Part shown: piece by piece, positions 12 to 29,510 of the stretch
Position numbering within the stretch: the first letter of the stretch is position 1
Layout: each line of letters begins with the position of its first letter
Origin: Halospeciosus flavus
GTDB lineage: Archaea; Halobacteriota; Halobacteria; Halobacteriales; Halobacteriaceae
Assembly: GCF_029814175.1 (NCBI RefSeq)
Contig: NZ_CP122312.1
Span: 2,170,001-2,234,000, forward strand
DNA length: 64,000 nucleotides
Direction of reading: 5' to 3'
Program-made: the position numbers and the translations under genes
The notes under the pieces: model-generated
What the model saw: only the letters and a program-made list of their open reading frames with translations
Databases searched by the model: none
What the model was told of the DNA's origin: nothing

Positions 12-121
12 CAGTCATTGGTCGTACAGCACATTTATTCACGATGGGAGCTGTAACTAGCCACGGAACACCTGCAGTACATGTTCCACACTGAATAAAG
101 AAATCGTATTACCAACAACTG
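12..121 (-). repeat. 110-bp palindromic MITE, copy 1
   Basis: This is one of four 110-bp copies of the same element in the window; the others are 4396-4505, 14020-14129 and 14358-14467, and this one is inverted relative to them. The two outer 44-base arms are imperfect inverted repeats with roughly 60-65 percent identity by eye; the tips read CAGT.GTTGGT and both arms contain TTTATTC. The element is flanked by TTAA at 8-11 and 122-125, which fits a 4-bp target-site duplication. It has no coding capacity, as expected of a MITE. The parent transposon was not identified. Confidence 0.85.
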
Positions 122-257
122 TTAAACCACTCCAAGCAAGATTCCGTGCCACTATCCGCATGAGCACCGGTGTGGCTTGTGTCCATGGGGCAACTCGTCC
201 CAGGACACGTCGTTGTGAGGAAGAAAGCACTTACTGACTATTCTCCAAGGAGACGAC

Positions 258-605
258 ATGAGATCTACCCGTCGGGCAGTCCTCGCCACGATACCATTGT
301 CGCTCGCCGCCAGCGGATGTATACAACAGTCACAGTCACAACCGAAGGTTGTCTCCAGCCGAATCTCAGCGGTCCACGACGAGACCTTCATCTACACCGT
401 GACCGTTGAGAACCCAAATCCCTCGAAAATATCGACCAATCTCTATGTGATTTGCCAGATTGGCAGTGAATATCAGCGTGTCAGATCGACACCCGTTGAG
501 CTCGGTGCGACCACGACTAAAGCGTACGATCTCCAGTTTGATCTTCCACCCTCAAATGTAGATGGGAGTAAGCGTACATTTCGACACGATTTCAGAGATG
601 ACTAG
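258..605 (+). CDS. Small secreted lipoprotein of unknown function
   Basis: A 115-residue protein. It begins with basic residues (MRSTRR), then a hydrophobic stretch and a lipobox-like LAASGC (Cys21), so it is probably exported, possibly by Tat, and lipid-anchored. The mature part (about residues 30-110) is hydrophilic and predicted beta-rich; it contains a VTVENPNPS segment like those in small extracellular beta-sandwich domains. The ATG follows an AAGGAGA ribosome-binding-like sequence by a few bases, which supports this start. The family is not recognised. The gene sits between a MITE and an ISH8-type insertion. Confidence 0.6.
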   Translation: MRSTRRAVLATIPLSLAASGCIQQSQSQPKVVSSRISAVHDETFIYTVTVENPNPSKISTNLYVICQIGSEYQRVRSTPVELGATTTKAYDLQFDLPPSNVDGSKRTFRHDFRDD

Positions 606-1018
606 CGCCGCTTCAGCGGCTTCGAGTCGGCGCCTACGACTTCAATAGAGCTGGGCTTTCTGTTTCTGTGTCGGGACTTGCCCCCCACGTGGGCGTACGA
701 TCCCAGACTCCGCAGGCGATTTCTCTTCGCGGTTCGGAGTGTCCCACACCTACCAACTGGACACCCGGCCACAACCGACCGTACGCACTTTCTCTCGTAC
801 TTGGACACTGCCGGAGATGTGGTGAGCATCGGACTCCCGCTTTCGACCGCGCGAGTATGAATACCGATGAACGGGCAAGTACCGTGTCCGGGCTCTGTCT
901 CTCCTCTCTGCTCGCGCCTTCGGCGCTCACTGAGGAAGTGCGCTTAGCGCCCTCCCCCCAGAAGCTAACCGAGGTCAGTCAAGTCGACTTTTTTGTTTAC
1001 ACAAGGGATATATTGGAT
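606..1018. other. Gene-free stretch with a possible tnpB 3' relic
   Basis: No convincing intact gene is present. The minus strand from about 880 down to 602 reads in one frame through RAVESGSPML and on to an Arg-rich tail. This weakly resembles the C-terminal tails of haloarchaeal IS1341-type TnpB proteins, such as KHVVETGS in the copy at 39065. I read it as a possible decayed transposon end, but the match is short. The right edge carries the 10-bp duplication flanking the ISH8-type element. Confidence 0.3.
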
Positions 1019-2421
1019 CATTGGTCTTTAGTTAGGCCTCACACCTCGGTTGCGTAGCGGTAGCAAGCGTTTCTTGGAGAATTGGTCGCTGCTTGTGGAT
1101 CTTCTGCGCGTCTTCGATCAGCCGCTCCAGCAACGGCGGTGGCGAGTAGCCGAGGTACTCACCGAGTTCGTGGAGGATGAGCTGGGCGTGCGACCGGAAG
1201 GTCGCCGCCCAGCGTTCCGGCGGAAACACGATCTCCTCGTCAGCCTGTTCGGTGACCAGATCCAACAGATCACGGCTCACTAACAGCGATAACAACGCCG
1301 CATACAGCAGAATTTCCACGATATACGCCTTGCTCGTGTCGAACTCATCCAGGTTGTACTGCGTCTTCAACTCACGAAACAGCAGTTCTACCTCCCACCG
1401 ACAGCGATAGATCGTTGCGAGATCCGCTGGCAGGAACTCCTCTCTCGGCAGGTTCGTGATATACAGATGGTAGTCGTCGGCGTCCTCGTCGCGGACGCCG
1501 ACGACGCGGAACCGCTTGCTATCCCATGACTGCGTGCCGGCGTACTCGCGTCGCTGAAACGTCGCTTCCACTTCGACATCGATGTACTTCCGGTGGAGGT
1601 CGTCCACGACATCCTGGATCTGTTCGCCCTCCAAGGGAATGGCGTCGCCACGCCATTCCCGTAATTCCGCCGTTATCTCCGGATTTGCGTCCGGTTTCAG
1701 CCGACTCACGAAGTACCCGTCGTTTTCGTCAATCAGTGCAAAGCGGCGGTACTTGAAGTACGCTTGATCGAACAACACCAACCGGTCTTCGAGCCACGGT
1801 CCCGTGGAAAACTCGGTGCTGTCGTGTGCTTTCTCGTCAGTGACGCTGAACCGGCCGATCGTCTGCTCGGTGACGTTGTGGAGCAGGTGGAGCCGCGCTC
1901 CACCCTGCTCCCCTCGCCGTGGTTCGAAGTCCTCTGAAAGAAACCGATGCAACCGCAACACCGTGCCGTCGGCGATCATCACGTCACGGAACCGGTCAAC
2001 ATCGACGTCAACAGCATCAGGAACAGCGACCTCGTCGATACCGTGCTCGACGAGGTCGCAGAGATACTCCGCAAACGTCGGCGTCAACCGCTGATGGAAT
2101 CCGCCGGGTGAGAGTGTCTCATCGGCAGTAGCGTTGTAGCTGCGCCGGAACCCAGCGAGTGTTCGGCTCTCGCCTGCGGCGAAGCCGAACACGAACGACC
2201 ACACGAGGGCGGGCACCTGTGTCTTCCTGTCGCGTTCGACCACGCCGAGTTCCTCGGCGTGCTCTTCGAGGAACTCGGAAGGAAACAGTGTAGTGAGCCG
2301 ACGCATAATCCGAGGTGAGGGGGTTTCGTTGTGCACACTCGACACCTCCTCATTCCTTCCGAAAAGTAGCCTCGATAAGCCGCCGCTGTCACGCGGTTCG
2401 TCTCCTAACTAAAGACGGATG
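1019..2421 (-). mobile_element. ISH8-type insertion sequence (IS4 family), complete
   Basis: The element is 1403 bp. Its 18-bp terminal inverted repeats begin CAT..GTCTTTAGTTAGG and differ only at two internal bases. It is flanked by a perfect 10-bp target duplication, TATATTGGAT, at 1009-1018 and 2422-2431. Size, end sequence and duplication length agree with the ISH8 group of haloarchaeal IS4 elements. It carries one intact transposase gene on the minus strand, whose stop codon lies inside the left terminal repeat. The insertion lies 28 bp upstream of the ATG at 2450. Confidence 0.95.
1032..2345 (-). CDS. ISH8-type IS4-family transposase
   Basis: A 437-residue DDE transposase that catalyses cut-and-paste movement of the surrounding IS. 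Catalytic motifs are visible: MIADGT (first Asp), LVLFDQAY (second Asp) and YRCRWEVELLFRELK, the IS4 signature Y-x2-R-x3-E-x6-K with the catalytic Glu. Length is normal for the family and no frameshift is seen, so it may be active. The ATG lies about 75 bp inside the right end of the element. Confidence 0.95.
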   Translation of the reverse strand: MSSVHNETPSPRIMRRLTTLFPSEFLEEHAEELGVVERDRKTQVPALVWSFVFGFAAGESRTLAGFRRSYNATADETLSPGGFHQRLTPTFAEYLCDLVEHGIDEVAVPDAVDVDVDRFRDVMIADGTVLRLHRFLSEDFEPRRGEQGGARLHLLHNVTEQTIGRFSVTDEKAHDSTEFSTGPWLEDRLVLFDQAYFKYRRFALIDENDGYFVSRLKPDANPEITAELREWRGDAIPLEGEQIQDVVDDLHRKYIDVEVEATFQRREYAGTQSWDSKRFRVVGVRDEDADDYHLYITNLPREEFLPADLATIYRCRWEVELLFRELKTQYNLDEFDTSKAYIVEILLYAALLSLLVSRDLLDLVTEQADEEIVFPPERWAATFRSHAQLILHELGEYLGYSPPPLLERLIEDAQKIHKQRPILQETLATATQPRCEA

Positions 2422-2449
2422 TATATTGGATTCTGTTGATGCACGTATC

Positions 2450-3037
2450 ATGTCGCTACCGCCACATGCCTCACTGAGGGTTCTCGTCGGGCTATTCGCT
2501 GTTGCTGTCCTCCTCGCAGCAAGGCATACTCTCAGACGTTTCTGGAGCGGAATGCCTGCACTGCCAACGTTAGCAAAACGGATACTGCAGCAATTCGTGA
2601 CAGACCTCCAAACTCGGTCTGTCGTGCAATGGTGGTTCGGCGTACTGAGCGTGGGTCTGGTTATGGTGAGTCTCCACTACATTTGGTTAGCACACTCACT
2701 GTACGCGACGATTCCATGGCTGGATATCCCTGCCCATGCAGTGAGTAGTGCGGGCGTCGTCGGCATTCTGATTCTCGGACTCCGAGAGACATTTCCGGAC
2801 TACATCTCCAACTGGTGGGTTATCACCATGGTCCTCGCGATCGGTGCCGGATTCGAGATTTATGAATTCCTCGTCAAAACGTTCTGGTACCACTGGACGC
2901 TTACAACTTATCTCGAGGATACCGTTCTCGATCTCCTGATCGAGATGCTCAGTGCCGGCATCATCGTTCACCTCAGCTCCTCACTTAAGCGACAGCGTAG
3001 ATATACACCACCCTCGATGTATCCGCGAAATCGTTGA
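2450..3037 (+). CDS. Multi-pass membrane protein, YjdF/DUF2238-like
   Basis: A 195-residue membrane protein with about five hydrophobic segments. The features WLDIPAHA, GAGFEIYEFLVK and DTVLDLLIEML resemble the conserved core of DUF2238/YjdF-type proteins, where an E-x-x-E motif and an Asp-Leu pair sit in adjacent helices; the function of that family is unknown. I chose the ATG at 2450. Upstream in-frame codons run back into the ISH8-type element and so postdate the insertion. The insertion 28 bp upstream has probably displaced or replaced the native promoter. Confidence 0.6.
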   Translation: MSLPPHASLRVLVGLFAVAVLLAARHTLRRFWSGMPALPTLAKRILQQFVTDLQTRSVVQWWFGVLSVGLVMVSLHYIWLAHSLYATIPWLDIPAHAVSSAGVVGILILGLRETFPDYISNWWVITMVLAIGAGFEIYEFLVKTFWYHWTLTTYLEDTVLDLLIEMLSAGIIVHLSSSLKRQRRYTPPSMYPRNR

Positions 3038-3082
3038 CATCGCTGACCGCTAGTCGACAGCCGAGTTCCAACTTTAACTTGA

Positions 3083-3907
3083 CTAGAGTTGGGCTGTCCC
3101 GGAACCTTCTCGACTCGCAGTAATGCGGACGTAGAATGCGATTGTGAAAGTCACTCCAATAGCACCAATGATGATCGTGATGAGGATGGACAACAGGACA
3201 AATCCAAGTCGCACACCTAACGGGGCAGTGCTCATCTGATTGAATGCAGCACCAGTGAAGAAGAGGTAGCCGATCGGAATCGAGGAGATGAGCGCACCAA
3301 GAACGAATGCGAGAACGTCGAATCCGATGACGGTAACGAGATTTTGACGGACAACGGAATAGCTTCGTTTTAGAGAGTCAATAACCCCTTCGTCGTCGAC
3401 CACAATAGCTTGGGCGTAGAACTGAAAGAGAAATCCGACGACGAGGATGACGAGCGCAAACAGTAGTCCAACGATTCCGATAACAGCGAGGACAGCGAGA
3501 GAGACCCCACCAAATCCGGCGCCCCCACCGATGACACCACCGAGAACCAGTGCGAAGACGAGAAAGGCAACTCCGAAGCCGACGATGAAGTACACGACGA
3601 AGAAGAGTAGCGACACTGCAAGGAGTCGAAGATAGTACTGCTTTCCGCCGCTCCAGAATCGAGAAAGGGATGTCGAACCGGTTAGCCCATCGAGTGCCAT
3701 CGATAGGAGACCACCCATGAAGAATGGAAAGACGAACACTAAGAGCAGGTTGTACGCCGACGAAACGAGTTGAAGTGCGGGACTGCCGGATATTTGTAGC
3801 AACCAGGCCGGTACTTGCACAAGTCCGTACAAAGTCGCTGCGACAAACAGTATCGGGTTGCGCTTGAGGGTATCGACGGCGTCTTGGAGAGCTGAAACGA
3901 CGGCCAT
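3083..3907 (-). CDS. Polytopic membrane protein, DUF7847-like
   Basis: A 274-residue protein with six or so long hydrophobic helices and Gly-rich turns. The layout (ALQDAVDTLKRNP at the start, long glycine-rich helices, then DDEGVIDSLKRSYSVVR before the last helices) is that of the haloarchaeal DUF7847 group, related to membrane domains found beside glycerophosphodiesterases. The specific function is unknown. The ATG at 3907 starts directly at the conserved N-terminal amphipathic segment; the longer upstream reading frame is Pro/Ser-rich and unlikely to be translated. It is convergent with the membrane gene at 2450. Confidence 0.65.
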   Translation of the reverse strand: MAVVSALQDAVDTLKRNPILFVAATLYGLVQVPAWLLQISGSPALQLVSSAYNLLLVFVFPFFMGGLLSMALDGLTGSTSLSRFWSGGKQYYLRLLAVSLLFFVVYFIVGFGVAFLVFALVLGGVIGGGAGFGGVSLAVLAVIGIVGLLFALVILVVGFLFQFYAQAIVVDDEGVIDSLKRSYSVVRQNLVTVIGFDVLAFVLGALISSIPIGYLFFTGAAFNQMSTAPLGVRLGFVLLSILITIIIGAIGVTFTIAFYVRITASREGSGTAQL

Positions 3908-4226
3908 ACTTGATGAATATTCTCTACCAACTACCTTTTTGTGGATTTCCGGTTTCAAAACGTTACTTGAGTTTCTGGATTTTCTGACATCTCTATACGG
4001 TTCGAGCTGCGGTGATGGGGCTGGCGAGCAGATATGAGTGGGCTCGTGAGCGGGTGACTCCCGAGGACTCAAAATCGGGGCCACTTGACTCTCACACCGA
4101 GTTCGCTATTCAGCACAGCAGAATATCCGGGTTCGCTATCGGCGGTGGATTGTGGAGGGTTGTCGGATTCATCCCGCGCCTAAAGGCGCGGGTATTCTCC
4201 TTGCATTTTATAAATGATTTGTTGAA
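3908..4226. other. Gene-free stretch, transposon debris
   Basis: No gene was found. The stretch contains the upstream region of the DUF7847-like gene and a perfect IS200/IS605-style hairpin (see 4173-4192), so it probably includes a decayed transposon end. Confidence 0.4.
4173..4192. repeat. IS200/IS605-type end hairpin, orphan
   Basis: A perfect 8-bp stem (CCCGCGCC / GGCGCGGG) closes a TAAA loop. Hairpins of this design, with an AAAG-containing apex, form the subterminal ends of the tnpB elements elsewhere in this window (42461-42480 and 43801-43820). No tnpB gene is attached here, so it looks like an abandoned end. Confidence 0.6.
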
Positions 4227-4340
4227 CTACTGCACCGTTGCACCGCACGCAGGACACCGAGTGTCCTCCTTACTCTTTTCAAGATCTTGTTCATCACCAG
4301 CCCATCCACACGCCGGACATAGCACCACATCAGATGACAT
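4227..4340 (-). CDS. 37-residue double-CPxCG zinc-finger microprotein
   Basis: The translation has exactly two CPACG knuckles (Cys8/Cys11 and Cys29/Cys32) separated by a charged linker. This is the classic pattern of haloarchaeal zinc-finger microproteins, which bind one zinc ion and usually act as small regulatory or protein-protein interaction modules. The cysteine spacing and clean start and stop make chance coding unlikely. The specific family is not recognised. Its upstream side (higher coordinates) borders MITE copy 4396-4505. Confidence 0.7.
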   Translation of the reverse strand: MSSDVVLCPACGWAGDEQDLEKSKEDTRCPACGATVQ

Positions 4341-4395
4341 AGATTGAATGGGTGGCCAAGAAAACTTAGTGCTAGGGTCCAGCTCTCGCCCCTAT

Positions 4396-4505
4396 CAGTT
4401 GTTGGTAATACGATTTCTTTATTCAGTGTGGAACATGTACTGAAGGTGTTCCGTGGCTAGGTACAGCTCCCATCGTGAATAAATGTGCTGTACGACCAAC
4501 GACTG
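4396..4505 (+). repeat. 110-bp palindromic MITE, copy 2
   Basis: A 110-bp copy that differs at only a few bases from the copies at 14020 and 14358. It is flanked by CTAT (4392-4395) and GTAT (4506-4509), a 4-bp duplication with one mismatch. The sequence on its right continues as a degenerate, inverted second copy (4508-4549), so this copy seems to have landed inside an older one. Confidence 0.85.
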
Positions 4506-4507
4506 GT

Positions 4508-4549
4508 ATTCACAAACCGGGCCGCAACCAGCTATGGAACGCCTACAGT
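4508..4549 (-). repeat. Old degenerate MITE copy, left part, split by ISH3-type IS
   Basis: Aligned to the same stretch of copy 1, this segment keeps the same length and spacing from TATTCAC through to CAGT, with about two thirds identity. It ends in ACAGT (4545-4549), the first copy of the 5-bp duplication made by the ISH3-type insertion. Its other half is at 5979-6032. Confidence 0.65.
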
Positions 4550-4615
4550 CGGTAGTTCCCATCGAGTCAGCGGATAGTTACAACTGACGAGGTTACGTTC
4601 GCAGAAATCGTCTGG

Positions 4616-5797
4616 ATGGGTGTTGTGGAATTTCTCTACCACCCAGACACTGTTCTTACGGCCTCTGACCTTGAAACCTTAGCGCTTAATCTACTCGCAG
4701 CGATTCCAATCCCCGGAGTCGAAGGCTGCGGCTTCGACTCCGGGATCATCCGTCAAACGCTGCTGCAAGCTGCTGTCGATCAGAAGTCCATCAAAGCCGT
4801 CACAGATACCACTCGTGGAAGCTACTCCGACGATTACACCCTCAAACAACTGCACACCGTTCCAGCAGACGACCTCGAAGCCGCCGTCAACGACATCTTC
4901 GCTCAACAGGCGGCGATGATCCTCGGCCCCGGTCCGAGGATCATCTGCCTCGACTTCGTCGATATCCACTACCACGGTTGCCCACACGCTGACGCTAGCG
5001 AACTCTGTCACACGAAACCCCGCGATGGCACCAGCAAGTGCCATCGCTACCTCGCTGGATTCGTCCTCTGCCGGGCGAAACCACTCGTCGTTGCCGTCAC
5101 GCCCGTTCGTGGTGATGAGTCGAAAAGCGACGCGGTCGAGCGACTGCTCGACCACGTCGCGGCCCTCCCGTTCACCGTGGCTGGACTTCTCGCCGACCGC
5201 GGCTTCTACAACGGTGCATCAATCGAGCGACTGGATGCCGTGGCACCAGTCGCTCTTCCGATCGTCCGCCGTGGGAAGCAGGTGGCCGAGAAACTGGACA
5301 CGACGGTCTCCTACTGGACGGAGTACGTGATGTACGAGGGAAGCGAGCGGGAACTGCGCTTCCCGCTCGCAGTGTGTGTCTCCTACCAACAAGGCAACCG
5401 AGGCAAACACGGGTTGCTCGTGCGGGCCTACGTGGCGTGCGATCTGACCGATCGCACGCCGAAGGAAGTTGAAGCTCTCTACCAGAAACGCTCAGCCATC
5501 GAGACAGCCTTCCGGACGATGCGTGAAGCGCGTGCGCGGACAAGTACAACCGATCCAGCCGTTCGGTTGTTGTTCATCCTTGTGAGCTTCCTGCTGCGGA
5601 ACCTCTGGGTGATTGTCCGATGGGGCGTGCTCGCCACGCCGCGACGCGGCGGGCGAGCACTACCCGTCTGGTTCCGCTTCGAGGTGTTCCGGGAGTGGGT
5701 TGATCACGCTCTTGACGACACCTTGAGCCGGAAGTGGGAAGCACCAACCAACGGTGTCGGAATCCCGCCGACCTACAGCGAGCTGGACGCGGGCTGA
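4616..5797 (+). CDS. ISH3-family transposase
   Basis: A 393-residue DDE transposase. Catalytic candidates are the Asp in ICLDFVDIHYHG, the Asp in LLADRGFYN, and the Glu in LYQKRSAIETAFRTMREA. Between the first two is a Cys/His-rich insert (HGCPHADASELCH, then KCHRY) that may bind metal. Length and architecture fit the haloarchaeal ISH3 family and the frame is intact. A 13-bp terminator-like hairpin follows at 5860-5889. Confidence 0.93.
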   Translation: MGVVEFLYHPDTVLTASDLETLALNLLAAIPIPGVEGCGFDSGIIRQTLLQAAVDQKSIKAVTDTTRGSYSDDYTLKQLHTVPADDLEAAVNDIFAQQAAMILGPGPRIICLDFVDIHYHGCPHADASELCHTKPRDGTSKCHRYLAGFVLCRAKPLVVAVTPVRGDESKSDAVERLLDHVAALPFTVAGLLADRGFYNGASIERLDAVAPVALPIVRRGKQVAEKLDTTVSYWTEYVMYEGSERELRFPLAVCVSYQQGNRGKHGLLVRAYVACDLTDRTPKEVEALYQKRSAIETAFRTMREARARTSTTDPAVRLLFILVSFLLRNLWVIVRWGVLATPRRGGRALPVWFRFEVFREWVDHALDDTLSRKWEAPTNGVGIPPTYSELDAG

Positions 5798-5859
5798 AGC
5801 TGCCCGCGTCCAGCGGCAGCCCTGTACATGAGCGACAGCTTCGCCTCTTGTCTGGGTTG

Positions 5860-5889
5860 ACGGCGCTCTCACTGGCGTGAGAGCGCCGT
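5860..5889. terminator. Strong hairpin inside the ISH3-type element
   Basis: A perfect 13-bp stem (ACGGCGCTCTCAC / GTGAGAGCGCCGT) with a 4-base loop, followed by CTTTG. It sits 60 bp after the transposase stop and could terminate the transposase transcript or block read-in from outside. Confidence 0.5.
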
Positions 5890-5978
5890 CTTTGTTCGAC
5901 TCATTGAATCGGTCGCTCTGATCCCGTTCAGTTCCTTCCAGAAACCGAGTCAGCAATCAGGAACGATGGGAACTACCG

Positions 5979-6032
5979 ACAGTCCCAGATCCACACTAGA
6001 TAAAGAAATAGTATCACAACAACTAACAACTG
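5979..6032 (-). repeat. Old degenerate MITE copy, right part
   Basis: After the second ACAGT, this segment runs through CCACACT, ATAAAGAAAT and a CAACTG tip, in the order and almost the spacing of copy 1. It is the second half of the element interrupted by the ISH3-type IS. It ends two bases before the ATG of the next gene and so supplies that gene's immediate leader. Confidence 0.7.
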
Positions 6033-6034
6033 AT

Positions 6035-6271
6035 ATGCGCCCTCCTCTCGAGTACGTCCGAGAATGCAGTTGTGACAGCTGGGAGGACGTCTGGGAAGCG
6101 ATTCAGCTGGTTCTGTATGCCGCCTATTTCCCACTCCTCTTGGTCGGACTGTTCGTTTTGCCGTGGCTTCTAACAGCCTACACTGGCCTCTCGTTGGCCG
6201 TCGCGATCCAATTATCAGTGTTCGTCGTTACGGCCGGCTATGTGCTCGGATTCCTTGTTGTTTTTCGCTGA
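6035..6271 (+). CDS. Small two-helix membrane protein
   Basis: A 78-residue protein: a short acidic N-terminus with two Cys (ECSCDSWEDVWEA), then two long hydrophobic helices from about residue 24 to the end. It is unrecognised. The ATG at 6035 starts just beyond the MITE relic; the longer upstream frame would translate transposon and MITE sequence, so I rejected it. Its present promoter is probably MITE-derived AT-rich sequence. Confidence 0.5.
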   Translation: MRPPLEYVRECSCDSWEDVWEAIQLVLYAAYFPLLLVGLFVLPWLLTAYTGLSLAVAIQLSVFVVTAGYVLGFLVVFR

Positions 6272-6490
6272 TTTCTCTCGCTCGCCAGAATAGGTTGGGT
6301 AGTGGTCCAATTGCGTTACTTGATCGCCCAGAGGATCTTCGCGAGCCCTACAGATCGGCTTCAGAGTGATCTCCGGACTCAGTGAGTTCGTCGACTCGTA
6401 GTCACGTGATCGCGACGCGATGGCGGTGCACAGCGCGCATAGTCACGAGAGCAACGCTCTCGACACAGAAAGTGTCGGTATGGGTTACGT
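6272..6490. other. Intergenic stretch downstream of two convergent genes
   Basis: No gene seen. The stretch separates the small membrane gene from the S-layer gene terminator. A short inverted repeat (GAGAGCAACGCTCTC at about 6449-6463) is the only structure noticed. Confidence 0.4.
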
Positions 6491-6539
6491 CAAAAGAAAA
6501 AACCGCGACTGCGGTCGTGATGACCGGTTACGCCGGTCA
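6491..6539 (-). terminator. S-layer gene terminator, two hairpins plus T-run
   Basis: Reading with the S-layer gene, the hairpin TGACCGG/CCGGTCA (6521-6539) and then ACCGC/GCGGT (6502-6515) are followed by a run of Ts (TTTTTTCTTTT). It lies within 70 bp of the stop codon, consistent with a strong terminator for a very highly expressed gene. Confidence 0.7.
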
Positions 6540-6556
6540 GGCGTGATTAGTGTGCC

Positions 6557-9322
6557 TTAGTTCTCGCGGCGGAGCACGAGAAGCGCAGCACCGACGAGTG
6601 CGACGAGGGAGACCATGACGCCGAAGCCGGGCGTGCCACCGTTCGTCGTCGTGGTGGTCGGCGCGGCCGTCGTCGTGGTCGTGGTCGTCGTGCCCGTCGT
6701 GGTCGTCGTGGTGGTCGTCGTGTCAGACGGCGTGGTCGTGGTCGTCGTGTCCGTCTCCTCGACAACCTCGATCATCGTCGACGCGGACGAGTCCTCGGCC
6801 TCAGCGTTGACGCGGTAGGTCGTTCCGACCTCCGCATCAGCGAGCGAGACCGTCGTGTTCCACGTGCCGCTCATGGTGACGTCTGCCTGACCGCTGGCGA
6901 CGATGTCACCAGTGTCAGGGTTCGTGATCTCCACGAAGACCGTCGTGTCCGGACCCAGGTTCGTCGTCCCGGAGACCGTCACCTCACCCTGCGGGACCGT
7001 ACCCGTCGGGCTCGTGATTTCCAGCGACGGACTCTCGACCGTCAGGTTCGCACGTGCGATTGCGTCGTCAACACCAGCGCCCGTGTGCTCGTCGAGGATG
7101 ACCTCGACAGCCTGCTTCTGCGTTGCGGAGTTGCTGATGTTGTTGATGAGGGACTGCGGATCTGCGGACAGGTCACCGTCGCGGCCGGAGCCAACGACGA
7201 TGAGGTTCCACTGACCCTGCTGACGGAAGTTCGAGAGGTCCTTCTCGTAGGTCTGCTCGTCGTCGTCAACAGAGATCGACTCTGCCTGAATGTTGCCAGA
7301 GGTCGCTCCACGCGGACCAACGCGGTACACGTAGACGTCTTCCTGGCCGACTGCAGCACCGAACAGCGTAACCTCGTTGCCGCTCACGTCAGCGATCGTC
7401 GACCGCGAGAGCTGTGCGGAGAGGTTCCCTTCGACCGTCCGGATCGAGGTCGAAGTCGTCGTTTCGAAGTTCTGCCACTGGTCCTCGCTGTACGTACTGT
7501 CGTACGTTGCGGAGGCATCAGTCGTGGCGTAGAGACCGATCCGGTAGGAACCGGGGATTGCGAGCTCATCGCTCGCAGTCAGTTCGACCTCGTACGTACC
7601 GGAGCTGAGGTCATCGTCCGGGTTCGTCTCACCGGGGATCTTGTGCCAGGTCTCACCGACCTTGACGTAGGCACCAACCTGTTCTGCTTCCTGGGCAGTG
7701 CCGTTAATCGTGAAGTCGGTGCTCACCGGGACAACGCTCGGCGCGTCGCCGACCGTCATTTCCATCTCGGTGACTTCGAGATCGACTTCTTCATCAGCTT
7801 CACCGTAGCGCGTGTCGGAGACCTCGACGGTGATCGTCGAGTCCTCTTCAACGTACTGCGTGTCGATGCGGACCTGACCGGTCGCATCTTCGCCGAGTTC
7901 GATCTCGGCGACAACGGTGTTGTTTGCGGAGTCGTACGTGCGGTCAACAACATCACCAGTGTCGTCGAAGACCTGCGTGATGTTGCTGGCGTCGAGGCGG
8001 TCGAGCAGGTTGCTACTGTCGACGCGGACGAAGACGTTCTCGCCAGGCGAACCGGTGACCGTTCCGACAACCTTCTCGCCCTGGACGACGGACGTCTTGT
8101 CGAGCGAGATGCTGGGGTCAGCATCGCCAATCGTGAAGCTCACGGTATGGGATGCACTGTCGAGTTCGTCACCAGTAAGCGTGACATTGTACTGCTCTTG
8201 GTCGAGCGTGCCAAGGTTAGTCAGCTGGAACGTCGTGTCTGCCGTTCCAGTGTAGTAGTAGTCACCGCTAGCCTTCTCGATGTACTGGGAGCTCGTGTCG
8301 ACGAGGTCGCCAGTGATTTCGACACCGCTCGAGTCCTTGATCGTGATTTCGAGGCGGTCAGCACTCCCGAAGTTGTAGTCCGGGTTGACCGTGAGCGACG
8401 ACTGTTCAGTCGTCACCTGACCGTTCGTGACTTCAGTGTCCTCAGCGGAGCTAAGGTACAGGCTGACGTCGCTGAACGTCGGCTCGACAACACTATAGTC
8501 GACACCATCGTTGGTGTCAGTCGAGACCTGGTAGCCACCAGTCACGAAGTTGTTGGCCGACGTGAAGTCAGTCTTACTCGGATTCTCAACAACGATAGTC
8601 CGAGCATCGTCACCGGTCTTCTCGAACGTGACACTGCCGGTTTTCCCGACGTCGGGGACGATGTTCACGTCTTCCTCACCCATGAACACGGTCACAGGAT
8701 TGTTGTAGACCGTGTTGTAGTCACGCGTAGAGGACGAGGACGATAGGTCGGAGACCGTAAGGTCCGGGCTGAGGGTAACGTACCCGCCCGTGGACTCGTC
8801 GCTACCGACAACTTTAGCGAGAGTCTGACCAGTGTACGTCTGATCGCCCGTGACCGATGGTGCACGGAAGGAAACGACGAACTGAACCGAAACAGTGTCG
8901 TCCTGAAGACCACTGTCGGTCCCCGTCTTGATCATGACCTTGTTAGTGGACGAGTCAACAACGGACATCCCAGAGACCTCATAGGTCTGAGACGCGTTTG
9001 CGATCGTCCCGCCCGAGATAGCAATGTTCTCGAGGCTGTCGGGCAGATCAAGATAGAACTCGTCAGTGTTACCGTCAGCAGTGTTCACATCCTGAGCGGT
9101 ATACGTTACTTTGTACGAGCTATACGATTCTCCCTCATTAATGGGATCAGTCTCGTAGAGACTGACACCAGAGAGGGTCCCTTGGGTGCCGCCACCAGGA
9201 ACGTCGGCGGCCTGATTTGCCGCAGCTGCTCCCCCGGCGAACGCGATGGACCCTCCGAAGACGGAGATGACCATCAGCGCGGCGAGGAATAGGCCGCGGA
9301 TCTTATTGTTTGTGTCTGTCAT
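6557..9322 (-). CDS. csg: S-layer (major cell surface) glycoprotein, PGF-CTERM
   Basis: A 921-residue protein that forms the haloarchaeal cell wall lattice. It has a signal peptide (about residues 1-35, ending GGAAAA), long acidic beta-rich extracellular repeats with several N-x-S/T sequons, a Thr-rich spacer at about 860-890 that is probably O-glycosylated, and a C-terminal PGF motif (898-900) plus one hydrophobic helix and RREN tail. In this family, archaeosortase ArtA cleaves near PGF and attaches lipid. Length and order match Haloferax and Halobacterium Csg proteins. A leader with hairpins precedes the ATG and a strong terminator follows. The adjacent genes on the same strand encode a COG1361 surface protein and an exporter. 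Confidence 0.93.
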   Translation of the reverse strand: MTDTNNKIRGLFLAALMVISVFGGSIAFAGGAAAANQAADVPGGGTQGTLSGVSLYETDPINEGESYSSYKVTYTAQDVNTADGNTDEFYLDLPDSLENIAISGGTIANASQTYEVSGMSVVDSSTNKVMIKTGTDSGLQDDTVSVQFVVSFRAPSVTGDQTYTGQTLAKVVGSDESTGGYVTLSPDLTVSDLSSSSSTRDYNTVYNNPVTVFMGEEDVNIVPDVGKTGSVTFEKTGDDARTIVVENPSKTDFTSANNFVTGGYQVSTDTNDGVDYSVVEPTFSDVSLYLSSAEDTEVTNGQVTTEQSSLTVNPDYNFGSADRLEITIKDSSGVEITGDLVDTSSQYIEKASGDYYYTGTADTTFQLTNLGTLDQEQYNVTLTGDELDSASHTVSFTIGDADPSISLDKTSVVQGEKVVGTVTGSPGENVFVRVDSSNLLDRLDASNITQVFDDTGDVVDRTYDSANNTVVAEIELGEDATGQVRIDTQYVEEDSTITVEVSDTRYGEADEEVDLEVTEMEMTVGDAPSVVPVSTDFTINGTAQEAEQVGAYVKVGETWHKIPGETNPDDDLSSGTYEVELTASDELAIPGSYRIGLYATTDASATYDSTYSEDQWQNFETTTSTSIRTVEGNLSAQLSRSTIADVSGNEVTLFGAAVGQEDVYVYRVGPRGATSGNIQAESISVDDDEQTYEKDLSNFRQQGQWNLIVVGSGRDGDLSADPQSLINNISNSATQKQAVEVILDEHTGAGVDDAIARANLTVESPSLEITSPTGTVPQGEVTVSGTTNLGPDTTVFVEITNPDTGDIVASGQADVTMSGTWNTTVSLADAEVGTTYRVNAEAEDSSASTMIEVVEETDTTTTTTPSDTTTTTTTTTGTTTTTTTTAAPTTTTTNGGTPGFGVMVSLVALVGAALLVLRREN

Positions 9323-9446
9323 GGTTAGTTCGATGCTCGCTGATTTGCCGGGTCCTCGACCCAGACGGGGTCGGGTACTACGGCGCCCTCAGCTAGCCGA
9401 GGGGCGGGTAGGGGTATCCGAACAAAGACCTGTGTGTGGTATATGT
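9323..9446 (-). promoter_or_regulatory. S-layer gene promoter and structured leader
   Basis: On the minus strand a CATATAC TATA-like box lies at about 9439-9445, which would put transcription start near 9415 and give a leader of about 90 nt. The leader contains hairpins CGACCC/GGGTCG (9357-9373) and CCCTC/GAGGG (9386-9403). Long 5' leaders are unusual in haloarchaea, where leaderless mRNAs dominate, but have been reported for S-layer genes. Positions are inferred by eye. Confidence 0.5.
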
Positions 9447-9588
9447 CTTGTGGTGAATGCCTTCGATATCGGCCGCGAGAAGGCCTGCGTCATTCATTCA
9501 CACACCTTTCGATAATTACTCTCCACGAACCAATACTCGACGACCGAATCACGGCGAACAAGCGGAAAAACCACCAAAACGATAGTCC

Positions 9589-12036
9589 TCACTCCATCGG
9601 GTTGACGAGACTGTCCCAGACGACGAACGCCGATGGCGTCACGATCACTGACGTGATGTAGGAGTAGAAGATCGAGAGTGCAGTGATGACGCCGAACTGC
9701 CCAAGGATGGGCGTAATTGCGAGCGCGAGCACGCCGATACCGGAGACAGTCGTCAGCATACTGCCCGTGAGTGCCCCACCTGTTCCGGCGACCGTCGAGC
9801 CCATCGCTTCGTAGAGGTTGTCCCCCGTATACTCGTCGACGAAGCGGTGAACGAAGTGCGAGGAATAGTCAACACCCATCCCGATCGTGATCGAGAGAAT
9901 TGTGGCCGTCATCGCATTCAGCGGAATCGCCAAGAAACGCATCGTACCCGCGATAAAGGCGAGGGATAGCACGATCGGAACGAGATTGACGAGTCCGACT
10001 GTTGCGTACCCCTCGAATAGCCGGAAGATCGCGAGGAGGAAGACCGCGGCGGCGATCAGCGCGAGTGCAAGGCTTTGCAGGGCAGACTCAAGGATGGAGT
10101 CAGTGATCTGCTGGAAGATAATCGACTGGCCAGTCGCGGTCGCATCGTAGCGATAGTCATTGGCAATAGCCTGTGCGTCAGTCGTGACCTCGGCTTGGGA
10201 CGCACCGGACTCGATCGTGTAGACCACGCGCGTGCTTCGATAGGATGGAGTCAGGTAATTGTCGGCCCGATCACTGTATGGGGAGTCGAACAGGCGGTTA
10301 TAGATCGTTTTGAGATTGTCGTCGGGGATGCCGTCATCATCGACGTCGTTTCGCGCAACGAGCGCTGCGAACTCAGCATTCGCCTTGGCATAACTATCGA
10401 TGACATCGATAATGCTTGACGAGCGGGCAACCCGATCCTCGGCCGCGAAGGTGCTCGGCGGGTCGCGATTTGCACGCTGAATCTGTTCAAGCGCATAGTC
10501 GCGCGTCATCTGCCCCTCCACGTAGACGATGACCTGACCACCCCCAGTTGTCGCGAAGTGTTCGTCAAGATAGTCGATCGTCGCCGTCGCGGAGTAGTCA
10601 CTCGGCTTGAACGGCTCGGGAAGGCTCTCGAGATAGTCCGGGACGTCAGCTGGTGGGAGGAAGTCTTCCTGACTGAATGATGTATCAACACCAGTCCCGT
10701 ACGCGCCCGCGACGGCGGCCGAGAGAATCGCGAGTATCAAGAATGCTCGCGGCGCTCGCTTCGCGATAAACACTCCAAGTCTGAGAGCACGCCCGAGCAT
10801 GGACTCCTCAGAGCCGAGGGGACGCCGCCCGAATGCCGGGACGTTGTGGCGCTCACGCCATCTGTCAAGCAGGACCTTCCCGGCTGGGAGGAAGACCCCG
10901 AAGATAACCATGGTAAACGTAATTCCGATTGCGGCGACCAGGCCGAAACTTCGGATTGGAGGGAGTGAGCTCGTCAGATTCGCGGCGAATCCGAGGACGG
11001 TCGTCCCGGTAACAATGAAGAAGGCCGGAAGGAGTTGGTCCGTCGTCACCAACATGGCTTCATCAGTTCCAGCACCGTCAGCCCGTTCCTCACGATAGCG
11101 GTTGACCGCGTGGATACCGAAGTCGATACCGACGGCTAGGAGAAGTGGTGGCACGGCGACGAGCATCTGGGAAAACGGAATTCCCAGTAAGCCCATAAAG
11201 CCGAACGTCCAGATGACGGTCATCACCAGGGAAACGACGCCAAGGAACAGGTCAAAGGGATCCCGATAGGAGAAGATCAGGAAGAACAGAATCAGGAGGG
11301 CTGCAGCGGGCACGACGATAATCAGGGAGTCAACGATCACGTTTGCGAACTCCGCGGAGATCATCCCCGATCCGAAGACCGTAATATCACTGTTGACACT
11401 ATTGACGACGTGCTGGACGTTCTGCTGAATCGCAGTGAGTGGACTCGTTCCGCTGGCACCAATCGCAGAGCCACCTTCGCCAGGGATGCGGTGCGTAACA
11501 ACACCGATACTCCCAGAGGCGGTCGCGGACTCCCGGTTAAAGTCCTCACTCAGCGATTGGGCGATTCCCTTCTGTCGGGCCGCCTCTTCGACAGCGGCAT
11601 CAATCTCTTGGGGTGTCGCCGCCTGGAGCGCATCAATCTTCTCGGCAGTTGTGTCGGCCTGTGGGTTGAGCGTTGTCGCGATTGTGTCGGCCACACTCGA
11701 CGTTGCAGAAACACGAAGGCCCGGGCGCTCCGAAATACGCTTCTGGACGACTAACATGCGGAGCAGCGAGGACTTGGAGAGGACGTTCTGGTTCCGCTGG
11801 ATGAGCTGCGTTGAGCCGGTCCCAGCGGCGAATGGATCTTCGAACTCGCGCTGGACGTCCTCGTAGGCCTGCATCGCGGGGCTTCCTTCGGTGAACTGGG
11901 ACGTCCCGGATTCCGTCCCGATATTGCCGAGGCCCGCAGCGAACACCGCTGTCAGTAGTAGACAGGCGATGATGACTGTCTTGGGCTCCTCGACGACGAG
12001 TATATCGATCCGGTCGATGACGTCTTGATAGTCCAT
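9589..12036 (-). CDS. RND/MMPL-superfamily membrane transporter
   Basis: An 815-residue polytopic protein with two homologous halves. Each has one helix, a large extracytoplasmic domain, then a five- to six-helix block. The sterol-sensing/MMPL-like helix block is seen near GIDFGIHAVNRYREE in the first half and GMGVDYSSHFVHRF in the second. RND proteins use ion gradients to move hydrophobic or cell-envelope substrates. I chose the ATG at 12036; a TTG one codon earlier directly abuts the upstream stop. The start lies 3 bp after the stop of the COG1361 gene, so the two are surely one operon. The substrate is unknown. Confidence 0.85.
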   Translation of the reverse strand: MDYQDVIDRIDILVVEEPKTVIIACLLLTAVFAAGLGNIGTESGTSQFTEGSPAMQAYEDVQREFEDPFAAGTGSTQLIQRNQNVLSKSSLLRMLVVQKRISERPGLRVSATSSVADTIATTLNPQADTTAEKIDALQAATPQEIDAAVEEAARQKGIAQSLSEDFNRESATASGSIGVVTHRIPGEGGSAIGASGTSPLTAIQQNVQHVVNSVNSDITVFGSGMISAEFANVIVDSLIIVVPAAALLILFFLIFSYRDPFDLFLGVVSLVMTVIWTFGFMGLLGIPFSQMLVAVPPLLLAVGIDFGIHAVNRYREERADGAGTDEAMLVTTDQLLPAFFIVTGTTVLGFAANLTSSLPPIRSFGLVAAIGITFTMVIFGVFLPAGKVLLDRWRERHNVPAFGRRPLGSEESMLGRALRLGVFIAKRAPRAFLILAILSAAVAGAYGTGVDTSFSQEDFLPPADVPDYLESLPEPFKPSDYSATATIDYLDEHFATTGGGQVIVYVEGQMTRDYALEQIQRANRDPPSTFAAEDRVARSSSIIDVIDSYAKANAEFAALVARNDVDDDGIPDDNLKTIYNRLFDSPYSDRADNYLTPSYRSTRVVYTIESGASQAEVTTDAQAIANDYRYDATATGQSIIFQQITDSILESALQSLALALIAAAVFLLAIFRLFEGYATVGLVNLVPIVLSLAFIAGTMRFLAIPLNAMTATILSITIGMGVDYSSHFVHRFVDEYTGDNLYEAMGSTVAGTGGALTGSMLTTVSGIGVLALAITPILGQFGVITALSIFYSYITSVIVTPSAFVVWDSLVNPME

Positions 12037-12039
12037 CAA

Positions 12040-13683
12040 TTAGTTCTGGAGGTACCAGTAGATCCCGCCCGCGAGGACGACCAGCAGGATGACGACCCCG
12101 CCGATGAGGATCGGTGATGGGCCGCCACCCGCAGGCTCGGACACGTTCGCGGCGACAGTATACGTCTCGGAGAGCTGCTGGTCACCATCCGGGGTTTCGT
12201 ACTGGAAGTCCATCGTGACCGGGTATGGTTTCGCGAGTGCGCTGCCAGCCACACTCAGCTCGAAGCGCATGTTGACGGTTTCGCCCGGAGCGATCGTGGG
12301 AGCGAACGCCGTATCGTCGCTCGTCGAGAGCGGATTGTCGACGAATATCTTTGCGTTCACGTTCGACAACGGCTCATTGCCGTTGTTCGTGACCGCAACG
12401 GTGACGGCTCCTGCGGAGCCCGCAGTGAGTGAGACGTCGACTGGCTTCACAGTGAACTGCTTGCGCTCCGCGGCGACGGCTACCGTCGCAGGGATCGAAT
12501 CACTCTGCTGTGTCTCACCGGCCTTGTTCTGATACTCAACGGTAAATCGGAATTGGTGGGGGCCTGCCTCACCCGAATCGCTGACCTCTACGGGGAAGGA
12601 AATCTGCGTTGATTCGCCAGCCGACAGCTGTTCCAGGGCGAATTCTGTGCGCTGGGGATGAACCGCATCCGCACTCGTCGACAGCTTGGCAACAGCATTC
12701 GAGACAGTGCCTGGACCCTGATTCGTGAGCGTCGCTGTGACAGTCCCTTCTTCACCAACGCGGAGATTCGATGAGATATTTGAGAGCGTGAATGTCCGTT
12801 CTGGCTCAACAGTCACGCCCGTGGTGAGAAGATTCGACTCCGCGGCAATTCCTTTCGGCGTCGTGTAGTTCACCTGCATCTCGATCGGATAGGAGCCAGC
12901 CGTCGAACCATCTGTAGATCCGACCTTGATGGACCCGTTGTAGGTTTCACCCGGCTTGAGTTCGGGAATGAAGACCCGCGCCTGCTGCTGGGCCTTTGTT
13001 TGGCTGCCGAAGTAAATCGAGCGGTCCGAACTTGAGAATTCGACCGAGGCACGGTGTGCAACCTGTTCACCAGTGTTCTTGATCGTGAATTCGTACTGGC
13101 CCGTATCACCGACGAGCAAGTTGCTTGTCTGAGACGAGATAATGGAGAACTGCGGGCGTGCCTCAACGACGATCTCGACATATCGAGTTGTCGTGCGTGA
13201 AGAGTCGACGAATTCGATATTCGAGTATCCTCCCTGGGAGGACTGGTAGTTCACCATCGACGTATAGTCGTATTCGACACGGACAGGGACCTTGTACCGG
13301 CCCGGCTTGAGTTGCTCACCGACTTCGACAGTGAGTGCAGCCGTCTGTACACTCCCACTCGCAATCGAGCCAAGAGTAATCGTTCCGGATTTGACGTTGA
13401 CTGGTGCGTTGAGTTGCTCATCCAACACGGTTAGTTGGACATTGCGTGCCTCAGTCACCTGCTCGGTGAATTGGCTCGGCCCAGATTTCCAGATATTGCC
13501 ACTGTTCACGACTGTAACCCGGACCCGAGCTTCTTCACCAGCCTGGACATAATTGTCCCCCGACGAGAGGGTGATGCTCGGCGATCCGATAACCTGTTCC
13601 GTCCCGTCAGCGACGGCCGGAACGACGGGGATTACGAGGAGTGCCACCAGAAGGATGGCACCAATTGACTTTTTCTTAGTCAT
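12040..13683 (-). CDS. COG1361-type secreted protein, exporter partner
   Basis: A 547-residue protein with a signal peptide (about 1-25), four or more immunoglobulin-like NEW3/CARDB-type repeats (each with a GxTxxVxVTVVNSG or similar strand pattern), then a Gly/Pro linker and a C-terminal transmembrane helix ending WYLQN. It is therefore an extracellular protein anchored at the C-terminus. Haloarchaeal and methanogen genomes often pair such COG1361 proteins with RND-type exporters, as here, suggesting an envelope complex. It is first in the operon; the ATG is followed by a lysine-rich n-region. Confidence 0.8.
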   Translation of the reverse strand: MTKKKSIGAILLVALLVIPVVPAVADGTEQVIGSPSITLSSGDNYVQAGEEARVRVTVVNSGNIWKSGPSQFTEQVTEARNVQLTVLDEQLNAPVNVKSGTITLGSIASGSVQTAALTVEVGEQLKPGRYKVPVRVEYDYTSMVNYQSSQGGYSNIEFVDSSRTTTRYVEIVVEARPQFSIISSQTSNLLVGDTGQYEFTIKNTGEQVAHRASVEFSSSDRSIYFGSQTKAQQQARVFIPELKPGETYNGSIKVGSTDGSTAGSYPIEMQVNYTTPKGIAAESNLLTTGVTVEPERTFTLSNISSNLRVGEEGTVTATLTNQGPGTVSNAVAKLSTSADAVHPQRTEFALEQLSAGESTQISFPVEVSDSGEAGPHQFRFTVEYQNKAGETQQSDSIPATVAVAAERKQFTVKPVDVSLTAGSAGAVTVAVTNNGNEPLSNVNAKIFVDNPLSTSDDTAFAPTIAPGETVNMRFELSVAGSALAKPYPVTMDFQYETPDGDQQLSETYTVAANVSEPAGGGPSPILIGGVVILLVVLAGGIYWYLQN

Positions 13684-14019
13684 AGGAGGAATCGTATTGT
13701 CTCATACACTTCACCACTCGGGGATCCGCTCCAACCCAAATGTTGAATGTGCATTCAGTCACCTCGCAGTTCGGAAGTAGTACGTAAGTTCCTTTCGAAT
13801 ACCAGTGTTCCAACCCAGATCGCAAGGCGGACTTCCAACTACTTGCAGAGATTCGATAAGAGCTTGTGCTTTAGCGCAAGGAGGAATCCGGCAGCAGACG
13901 AAACAAACGACGATAGGCCTGTCTCTGCGATACCCACCGTTGGTTCTAGTCAATACCACAGAGCATACAGGGATCCAGGGCTTCCTCAGGGGACTCCGCA
14001 AACCGGCGCCGTATTTTAT
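13684..14019. other. Gene-free stretch upstream of the COG1361/RND operon
   Basis: No coding sequence is supported. On the minus strand it carries the upstream region of the COG1361 gene. The only in-frame readings are short, overlap on both strands and lack domain features. MITE copy 3 begins at the right edge. Confidence 0.4.
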
Positions 14020-14129
14020 CAGTTGTTGGTAATACGATTTCTTTATTCAGTGTGGAACATGTACTGAAAGTGTTCCGTGGCTAGTTACAGCTCCCATCGT
14101 GAATAAATGTGCTGTACGACCAACGACTG
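14020..14129 (+). repeat. 110-bp palindromic MITE, copy 3
   Basis: Near-identical to copy 2 and flanked by a perfect 4-bp duplication, TTAT, at 14016-14019 and 14130-14133. It ends 28 bp before the zinc-finger ATG at 14158, so it may provide part of that gene's promoter. Confidence 0.9.
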
Positions 14130-14157
14130 TTATACATAGGGAACCGTAGTATACACC

Positions 14158-14328
14158 ATGGAATCAGTTCGAAAGGGGCTGAGAAAGGATCAGCTGTACA
14201 AGGACACATACGGGCGCCTCAAATGCTCTGAGTGTGAGAAATCACTCCAAACGAAAGATAACCCATCTGAAGTCGGGACAACTCGAATCTGTCCCGATTG
14301 TGGAGAAGCGTGGACTGAACTCCGCTAG
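14158..14328 (+). CDS. HVO_0758-like small zinc-finger protein
   Basis: A 56-residue protein with two zinc knuckles, CSEC (23-26) and CPDC (45-48), and the framing ESVRKGLRKDQLYKDTYGRL ... ICPDCGEAW.ELR. That pattern is what I recall for the HVO_0758-family zinc-finger proteins of haloarchaea; this assignment rests on memory of the family. The role is probably regulatory. The gene lies alone between two near-identical 110-bp MITEs (copies 3 and 4). Confidence 0.75.
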   Translation: MESVRKGLRKDQLYKDTYGRLKCSECEKSLQTKDNPSEVGTTRICPDCGEAWTELR

Positions 14329-14357
14329 AGAACAACCACTCGTCTCGCACCTCCTAT

Positions 14358-14467
14358 CAGTTGTTGGTAATACGATTTCTTTATTCAGTGTAGAACATGT
14401 ACTGAAGGTGTTCCGTGGCTAGTTACAGCTCCCATCGTGAATAAATGTGCTGTACGACCAACGACTG
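14358..14467 (+). repeat. 110-bp palindromic MITE, copy 4
   Basis: Same length and orientation as copy 3, differing at a few bases. It is flanked by a perfect CTAT duplication at 14354-14357 and 14468-14471. The bases after the right duplication (TTCACAA) resemble those after copy 2, hinting that both copies landed in similar older sequence. Confidence 0.9.
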
Positions 14468-14530
14468 CTATTCACAACTTGATGACGGCCGGTCGGTCAG
14501 AAATTGGCTTTCACCAGGTTAGCTACGTAT

Positions 14531-26666: not shown

Positions 26667-26792
26667 TACAACGATTGTAGTCGATTCTCAGGATCTTTCT
26701 GCGGCCTGTTGATGGGTGAAGGCACTTACATTCAAATACAATCACGGGTCCATCAACTGGTGCGCGGGTATCCACCCCCAAGAGCAACACAA

Positions 26793-27656
26793 ATGATCGA
26801 AAATATCGACCCCGATGTATTCGTGCGGATTCAGACCGACCTGTTGGTAGTCGGTGACAGTATCATGACCGACAGACACCACGCCAGCAACGGCAACTAC
26901 CAAGATGACGACCCTCAGAATCAAATCGGCGGCATCATCCCTGCCTTCCCACTCTCGGGCTGGCTCCGTCATGGAATGGAAGAGGTCGTCCATGAGTATG
27001 ACGGGACTGCCTGTCACCCCGGCGAGGCTAACGCGAACTTCATGAAAGACGACGTCTATGAGCGCGACCTTGACGACGGCTATCACGAGAAGGGCGCGTG
27101 CACCGACGACCCGAAAGAAGACGACGGCTGTGTGGTCTTCGAGCTCTTCGGTGGCTTCGGTGGCGTCCCCGGGAAGGTGATGCGTCGCCCGATCAAGTTC
27201 AACCCCGTCCGTTCCAGCGTAGACTACACACGGGGACAGGCTGAAGGCCACTACCGCCGGCTGAACCGGAACATCGTCTCTCGAAACGCCGACGACAACC
27301 GGGAGCCACTACGGAACGTCGAGGTAGACGCTGTCGCCCATCTTGACGGCTGTTGGCACCTTTCCTTCCGAGAGATGAAACCCGAATTCGTCGGTTTGCT
27401 GGCCGAGGGAGTCGACTTCCTTGATGAACACAAGACGGACTTCATGCACCAACTCGGTGGTGCACGGAACTTCGGCGCAGGGATTGTTGATTGCCACCTC
27501 ATCAATCCGCTCTACGACGAGCGCGAGTTGAAGCGCGTCTTCGACCGTGGGAAGGACAACACGAAGAAGATGGACGAAAAGGACGACCAGTGGGCCGAGG
27601 AGTACCGCCCGGTGTTTGTGGAGGCGATGGAAGAGCGCATCGAGGAGGGACCGTAG
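26793..27656 (+). CDS. Cas7-like RAMP protein (putative HRAMP module)
   Basis: A 287-residue protein of the RAMP superfamily, which forms RNA-binding backbones in class 1 CRISPR effectors. Supporting features are a first ferredoxin-like strand (FVRIQTDLLVVGDS, 10-23), the IPAFPLSGWLRHG loop (49-61) matching the IPGSSLKGALR-type motif of Csm3/Cmr4/Csf2 proteins, CVVFELFGGFGGVPGK (113-128) like the CxxxxLFG element, and a Gly-rich GGARNFGAG (222-230). The start at 26793 begins at the family fold; 28 upstream in-frame codons look non-coding. The stop abuts the next ATG. It corresponds to the diverged Cas7 of the predicted haloarchaeal HRAMP system. Metal-site residues for cleavage are not evident. 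Confidence 0.75.
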   Translation: MIENIDPDVFVRIQTDLLVVGDSIMTDRHHASNGNYQDDDPQNQIGGIIPAFPLSGWLRHGMEEVVHEYDGTACHPGEANANFMKDDVYERDLDDGYHEKGACTDDPKEDDGCVVFELFGGFGGVPGKVMRRPIKFNPVRSSVDYTRGQAEGHYRRLNRNIVSRNADDNREPLRNVEVDAVAHLDGCWHLSFREMKPEFVGLLAEGVDFLDEHKTDFMHQLGGARNFGAGIVDCHLINPLYDERELKRVFDRGKDNTKKMDEKDDQWAEEYRPVFVEAMEERIEEGP

Positions 27657-28457: not shown

Positions 28458-28499
28458 CAAAATGAGATACCTCGAGAACTTTAGGAGGGTGTTCGACCG

Positions 28500-29432: not shown

Positions 29433-29480
29433 GATAACTCACACGAGACAGCGGAATCGCACGAAAAATCAGGCCGCCGA

Positions 29481-29499
29481 TGAATAAAGAAATCGTATT
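29481..29499 (-). repeat. 19-bp relic of the 110-bp MITE end
   Basis: Nineteen bases (TGAATAAAGAAATCGTATT) match the end region of the MITE copies exactly, including copy 1. The rest of the element is missing. It sits between the Cas5-like gene and the stop of the HVO_0476-like gene. Confidence 0.6.
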
Positions 29500-29510
29500 G
29501 ACACTAAAAA

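Follow-up and report, generated by a model that had tools for sequence, protein, structure and literature searches.

What moves a small repeat that carries no gene of its own, and what larger element does it come from? We asked this of a 64,000-nucleotide stretch of the haloarchaeon Halospeciosus flavus (contig NZ_CP122312.1, positions 2,170,001 to 2,234,000; hereafter the window), which holds four repeats of 110 bp. A preliminary description of the sequence had taken them for miniature inverted-repeat transposable elements (MITEs) mobilised by an unseen transposase, and the evidence given here supports both points. We consider it likely, at a probability of roughly 80%, that these repeats belong, as MITEs, to a family of haloarchaeal transposons in which the larger members carry HRAMP (haloarchaeal RAMP), a module derived from CRISPR (clustered regularly interspaced short palindromic repeats) systems, and that they are moved in trans.

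Copies of the 110-bp element

The four copies in the window lie at 12-121 (minus strand) and at 4396-4505, 14020-14129 and 14358-14467 (plus strand), as first described; each is exactly 110 bp long and 97-100% identical to the copy at 14020. Perfect 4-bp duplications flank three of them: TTAA (8-11 and 122-125), TTAT (14016-14019 and 14130-14133) and CTAT (14354-14357 and 14468-14471). The flanks of the copy at 4396 differ by a single base (CTAT/GTAT), which may be due to the decayed older copy that it abuts. The arms are the imperfect inverted repeats reported earlier, with a left tip of CAGTTGTTGGTAATACGATTTCTTTATTCAG and a right tip of CAGTCGTTGGTCGTACAGCACATTTATTCAC; read in one orientation, the element starts with CAGTTGTTGGTAATACGATTTCTTTATTCAGTGTGG and ends with the complement of CAGTCGTTGGTCGTACAGCACATTTATTCACGATGG. 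It is short, bounded by terminal inverted repeats and devoid of a transposase gene, as MITEs are.

We counted nine copies in the genome (3.56 Mb in three contigs), all on the contig that holds the window (C1) between 2,054,266 and 2,184,467; the other two contigs have none. The chance that nine random places on C1 would fall within so short a span (130 kb) is about 7e-11. A fifth full-length copy (C1:2054266-2054375) has a perfect ATAC duplication, and perfect duplications flank four of the five full-length copies. G+C content around most copies is about 0.48-0.63, compared with about 0.62-0.70 on either side, and this mostly low-GC stretch (C1:2054266-2184467) may be an integrated plasmid or island. 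One copy (C1:2108831-2108940, ATAG duplication) splits a small open reading frame (ORF), residues 1-20 and 17-76 of which lie on either side; an uninterrupted homologue is known, distant at 34% identity. Between the two window copies that lie 228 bp apart (14130-14357) is a small zinc-ribbon-like ORF, and the pair could move as a compound unit.

A tenth, decayed copy had been overlooked. Its right arm, tip lost, lies at 4506-4549 and its left arm at 5979-6034 (both minus strand), on the two sides of an ISH3-family insertion sequence (IS) at 4550-5978 (plus strand), which is flanked by a 5-bp ACAGT duplication and has a transposase gene (4616-5797) scoring above the ISH3 cut-off. The joined halves align with the MITE at a score of 80, whereas the best of 1,000 shuffles reached 41, and a reversed 234-kb control yielded no end-like site at the same threshold. 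As the ISH3 element sits inside the decayed MITE, MITE activity predates that insertion.

The 110-bp repeats are therefore not only repeated but have moved, as their perfect duplications at unrelated sites attest, and we conclude that they are true miniature transposons. The opposing view, that the sequence is an immobile regulatory or RNA element at fixed positions, for example an HRAMP guide or binding site, draws on its near-palindromic form, on a single strand that folds better than shuffled sequence (z = -2.5), and on the frequent retention of the inner part of the end beside HRAMP genes after decay of the tip. Conservation at orthologous positions, the observation that would have told for such an element, was not seen: among 394 genomes of the order, the complete 110-bp sequence occurs in that of the window and is absent from the other 393. 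Rfam families have no match in the first 30 kb of the window, and the same tips bound whole elements for which an empty site exists (see below). We regard an immobile element as very improbable. The gene beside the copy at C1:2054266 has matches in 44 of 58 relatives, which lack the MITE. For four other copies, joining the flanks revealed no aligned empty junction in any of 59 genomes, because most copies sit in sequence that is not conserved in the relatives compared; the joined flanks of two window copies had no match in plasmids. Searches of phage records found neither the MITE nor the HRAMP Cas7.

An HRAMP-carrying transposon with the same left end

When plasmids were searched with the MITE, only its left 31-35 bp matched, in 12 haloarchaeal plasmids, and most of these matches are one end of larger elements or of their remnants. 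The left 31 bp are identical (31/31) to one end of transposons in Halobacterium salinarum NRC-1 pNRC200 (6,008 bp, TTAC duplications), Natrinema pNATPE01 (6,569 bp, ATAC duplications) and others; a further element, in Halomicrobium urmianum, measures 6,628 bp and has unequal flanks. The preliminary description had suggested looking for an element with matching ends and a 4-bp duplication, and the HRAMP-carrying transposon answers to this, its right tip being only similar to that of the MITE.

HRAMP elements span 3.4-10.9 kb. From the left end, their genes encode a Cas5-like protein, a conserved middle protein, a Cas7-like protein, variable products, a winged helix-turn-helix protein and, near the right end, a transposase; a ribbon-helix-helix antitoxin and a ParE-like toxin are often also aboard. 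The Cas5-like protein is related to Cmr3 (E 2e-7) and the Cas7-like protein to Csm3, the latter by a match that is weak taken alone (E about 1e-3). With diverged Cas5 and Cas7 homologues and a conserved third protein, the gene set, as read from sequence, matches HRAMP as reviewed (PMC8730458, PMC12669027). HRAMP is associated with nucleases of the HNH and PD-(D/E)xK kinds. In some elements here a TnpB-like half protein adjoins cas7 (L061:22591-23253, L161:11836-12510 and L172:7322-7996; 220-224 aa, with a TNB domain and partial OrfB).

The pNRC200 element provides a clean comparison of empty and occupied sites for the parent type. Its joined flanks match six Halobacterium plasmids without a break; the two empty-site plasmids that were inspected (GSL-19 and KBTZ03) read ...GGTTCCATTACCGACACC..., with a single TTAC, whereas in NRC-1 a TTAC stands at each end of the 6,008 bp. 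Perfect 4-bp duplications, all of the form NTAN, flank the facing ends around HRAMP at 16 of the 19 distinct loci that have two ends. NTAN likewise describes 31 of 31 perfect end pairs (29 distinct places) when small elements from other genera are counted in, and it describes the duplications of the MITE itself. The loci were picked by match quality, so these fractions are not unbiased frequencies. The end-scoring patterns behind these scans were written after the first elements had been seen and thresholds changed between scans; the controls were reversed sequence (27 chance matches compared with 143) or random pieces of the same loci. In the 394-genome survey, a Cas5-like protein was found in 108 genomes, a match to the MITE tip in 153 and the transposase (E <= 1e-100) in 9.

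In several genera, paired ends enclose the transposase gene. Its product (about 610-626 aa) scores 115 and 118.6 bits, short of the ISH3 family cut-off of 225, and so does not pass the curated family model; it carries the Y-(2)-R-(3)-E-(3)-R motif (YRRRWGIETGFR in P0007). On these sequence features it is classed as a distant ISH3-family relative and a DDE enzyme; its predicted structure was too poor to use (predicted local distance difference test score, pLDDT, 58). ISH3 elements have CRGT ends, duplications of 4-5 bp (typically 5 bp), the same Y-R-E-R motif and lengths of 1,225-1,500 bp (De Palmenaer 2008, PMC2266710). The HRAMP transposon shares with them CAGT ends (a form of CRGT), 4-bp duplications and a DDE transposase with the motif, but differs in the size and below-cut-off score of that transposase, in its far greater length with cargo and in its 4-bp NTAN target. 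The preliminary description had held that the MITEs share no end with the ISH3-type element in the window. Their tips do differ from the canonical CGGTAGTTCCCATCG with its 5-bp duplication (ACAGT), yet the transposase linked to the matching ends turns out to be a distant relative of that family. On their tips and duplication length, neither the ISH8-type nor the canonical ISH3-type elements in the window qualify as parents. We found no support for the proposal that TTTATTC in the tips acts as an outward promoter; in each arm the motif points inward, and it belongs to the terminal repeat conserved across the family.

Other enzymes in the genome have to be weighed. It carries ISH3-related ISs of about 1.36 kb, with tips CAGTAGTTG or CAGTAGGTG (CAGTAGTTGCCGAA or CAGTAGGTGCCGAA), and the main rival explanation is that these, rather than the HRAMP-transposon enzyme, moved the MITEs. 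They are present in the same genome, have CAGT and the greater part of their first nine bases in common with the MITE, and make 4-bp duplications. Those duplications, however, are TGAA or TAAA and do not fit NTAN. Agreement with the MITE tips is limited to 7-10 of the first 16 bases, compared with 20/20 for the left end of the HRAMP transposon, and the ISs sit elsewhere on the chromosome, whereas the MITEs are confined to 130 kb. We therefore consider these ISs an unlikely source of the movement and the HRAMP transposon the better candidate.

The same ends also bound elements without HRAMP. These occur in genomes where no HRAMP Cas5 is listed (e.g. G250, G310 and G200), so HRAMP is not always needed. 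Sister elements with tips CAGTAGTTGGTAA / CAGTAGATAGTA and perfect NTAN duplications (L214:9781-12423, L213:8824-9830 and L223:9109-9781) carry ordinary cargo, for example a 402-aa ORF resembling cystathionine gamma-synthase (putative) or small lipoprotein-like genes; no transposase was seen in them, and they are probably mobile cassettes moved in trans.

Two HRAMP clades and the relic in the window

We built a tree of 64 Cas5 rows and assigned its intact, decayed and deep groups from end scores. A fully supported branch sets apart fifteen deep-branching rows, in which no end lies near cas5. Among the other 49, an intact or near-intact end lies 101-166 bp downstream of cas5 in 27, and the end is decayed, faint or unrecognisable in 22; the faintest of these are weak calls, and several do not outscore random pieces of the locus they come from. 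This distribution bears on the suggestion that the end beside HRAMP is a MITE that landed there by chance. Such tips are common in haloarchaea, as the survey count above indicates, but chance landing would have to account for a near-constant position in 27 members of one clade and 0 of 15 of the other, for end pairs that bracket the whole module with matching duplications, and for a whole element with an empty site. We find that explanation scarcely credible and take the end to be that of the HRAMP transposon.

The window has an HRAMP locus of its own, about 12 kb from the MITEs. On the plus strand it comprises the cas7-like gene (26709-27656; a Csm3-related RAMP), the conserved middle gene (27657-28457; no family match) and the Cmr3-related cas5-like gene (28500-29432), whose product is 72% identical to the Natrinema pNATPE01 protein. 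A decayed transposon end follows at 29480-29510 (minus strand); its inner AATACGATTTCTTTATTCA, equivalent to MITE positions 12-30, is kept and the outer 11 bp or so are lost. These genes (26709-29432) group with intact-ended relatives, the nearest 91% identical. The window yielded no right end, and the genome holds no close transposase of the HRAMP-transposon type, the best full-length matches being generic ISH3-like proteins at 31-32%. With its tip lost, no right end in the window and no close transposase in the genome, the locus looks like an immobile relic.

At many HRAMP loci the inner GATTTCTTTATT stretch survives where the tip has decayed (for example at 29480-29499 of the window), which might point to a second role of this stretch for the HRAMP genes. 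Cas10/Csm1 chains were among the top structural matches of the middle protein (27657-28457), none of them significant (E 0.5 or worse); its predicted fold may be that of a shrunken large subunit.

Origin of the MITE and its place among known systems

We infer that the transposase of the HRAMP transposon moved the window MITE, by the following route. The enzyme of about 610 aa would bind the tip common to transposon and MITE (CAGTNGTTG..., in which TTTATTCA lies about 21 bp from the end) and cleave at CAGT, and insertion at NTAN would generate the 4-bp duplications; a short element with such tips would need nothing more and could be mobilised in trans. A full HRAMP transposon would have entered the lineage and given rise to short derivatives, one of which, the 110-bp form, multiplied within a single low-GC region, while the autonomous copies were lost and an immobile HRAMP relic was left behind. 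Short forms that keep both ends exist elsewhere: a 243-bp form with CTAA duplications (L208) and two of 486 bp (L207) and 632 bp (L209) that contain pieces of cas5. At least three further genomes, from other genera, hold MITEs of 109-110 bp that have the same tips (L206, L215, L218); two of these MITEs have perfect duplications, and the interiors of all differ from that of the window MITE. The tip of the window MITE is that of the pNRC200/Natrinema subclade (TTGGTAATACG) and not that of the relic's relatives (TTGCAAATACG), so the MITE probably derives, on this tip comparison, from another HRAMP transposon that is now lost.

Several observations weigh against this reading. The right tip of the MITE, CAGTCGTTGGTCGTACAGCACATTTATTCAC, has only similar and no exact counterparts in the full elements found, and its interior matches no known HRAMP transposon; its direct origin by deletion is thus tentative. 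The intact relatives in the relic's subclade end in CAGTTGTTGCAAATACG, and the relic is therefore not the direct parent of the MITE. Finally, the genome lacks a close transposase, and its ISH3-related ISs share part of the tip as well as the 4-bp duplication length, which would allow cross-mobilisation.

Taken alone, the MITE is of a familiar type. Haloarchaeal MITEs were already known, namely ISH2, mobilised by ISH8, and MITEHsal1/2 of Halobacterium (PMC10264941). Like these, the window MITE is short and non-coding, has ends related to a full-size element, makes target duplications and presumably moves in trans; it differs in its tips, in duplication length and in its parent type, which is a large HRAMP transposon and not a simple IS. 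In H. salinarum, the plasmid search with the window MITE matched only the end of the HRAMP transposon.

The HRAMP transposon appears to be unreported. The literature examined, to which the founding HRAMP paper (FEMS Microbiol Lett 2019) does not belong, treats HRAMP as a derived defence system and makes no mention of transposon ends. Reviewed HRAMP is a CRISPR-derived Cas5/Cas7 system without an array (PMC8730458, PMC12669027), and the present loci agree in their Cas5-like and Cas7-like proteins of type III affinity, in the conserved uncharacterised protein and in that no array was seen; they differ in that one clade is bounded by transposon ends, on which those two papers are silent. CRISPR-associated transposons (CASTs; Tn7-like, PMC8730458) are likewise transposons with a CRISPR derivative aboard, but the HRAMP transposon has an ISH3-like and not a Tn7-like transposase, shows no guide array and has many same-ended relatives without HRAMP. 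No guide for RNA-directed insertion by HRAMP elements was found, nor any sign that HRAMP directs insertion. It seems improbable that HRAMP proteins act in the transposon's own life, for example in the choice or exclusion of targets through guide RNA, which would make this a CRISPR-linked lineage independent of the Tn7-like ones.

HRAMP has been a puzzle: it derives from CRISPR but has no array, and no function is known for it. That one whole clade is, or once was, carried as cargo by a transposon accounts for how HRAMP could spread between haloarchaea; this transposon has defined ends and a transposase, and an empty site for it exists. Its status as cargo offers a handle for testing the function of HRAMP, and the MITEs a natural minimal substrate.

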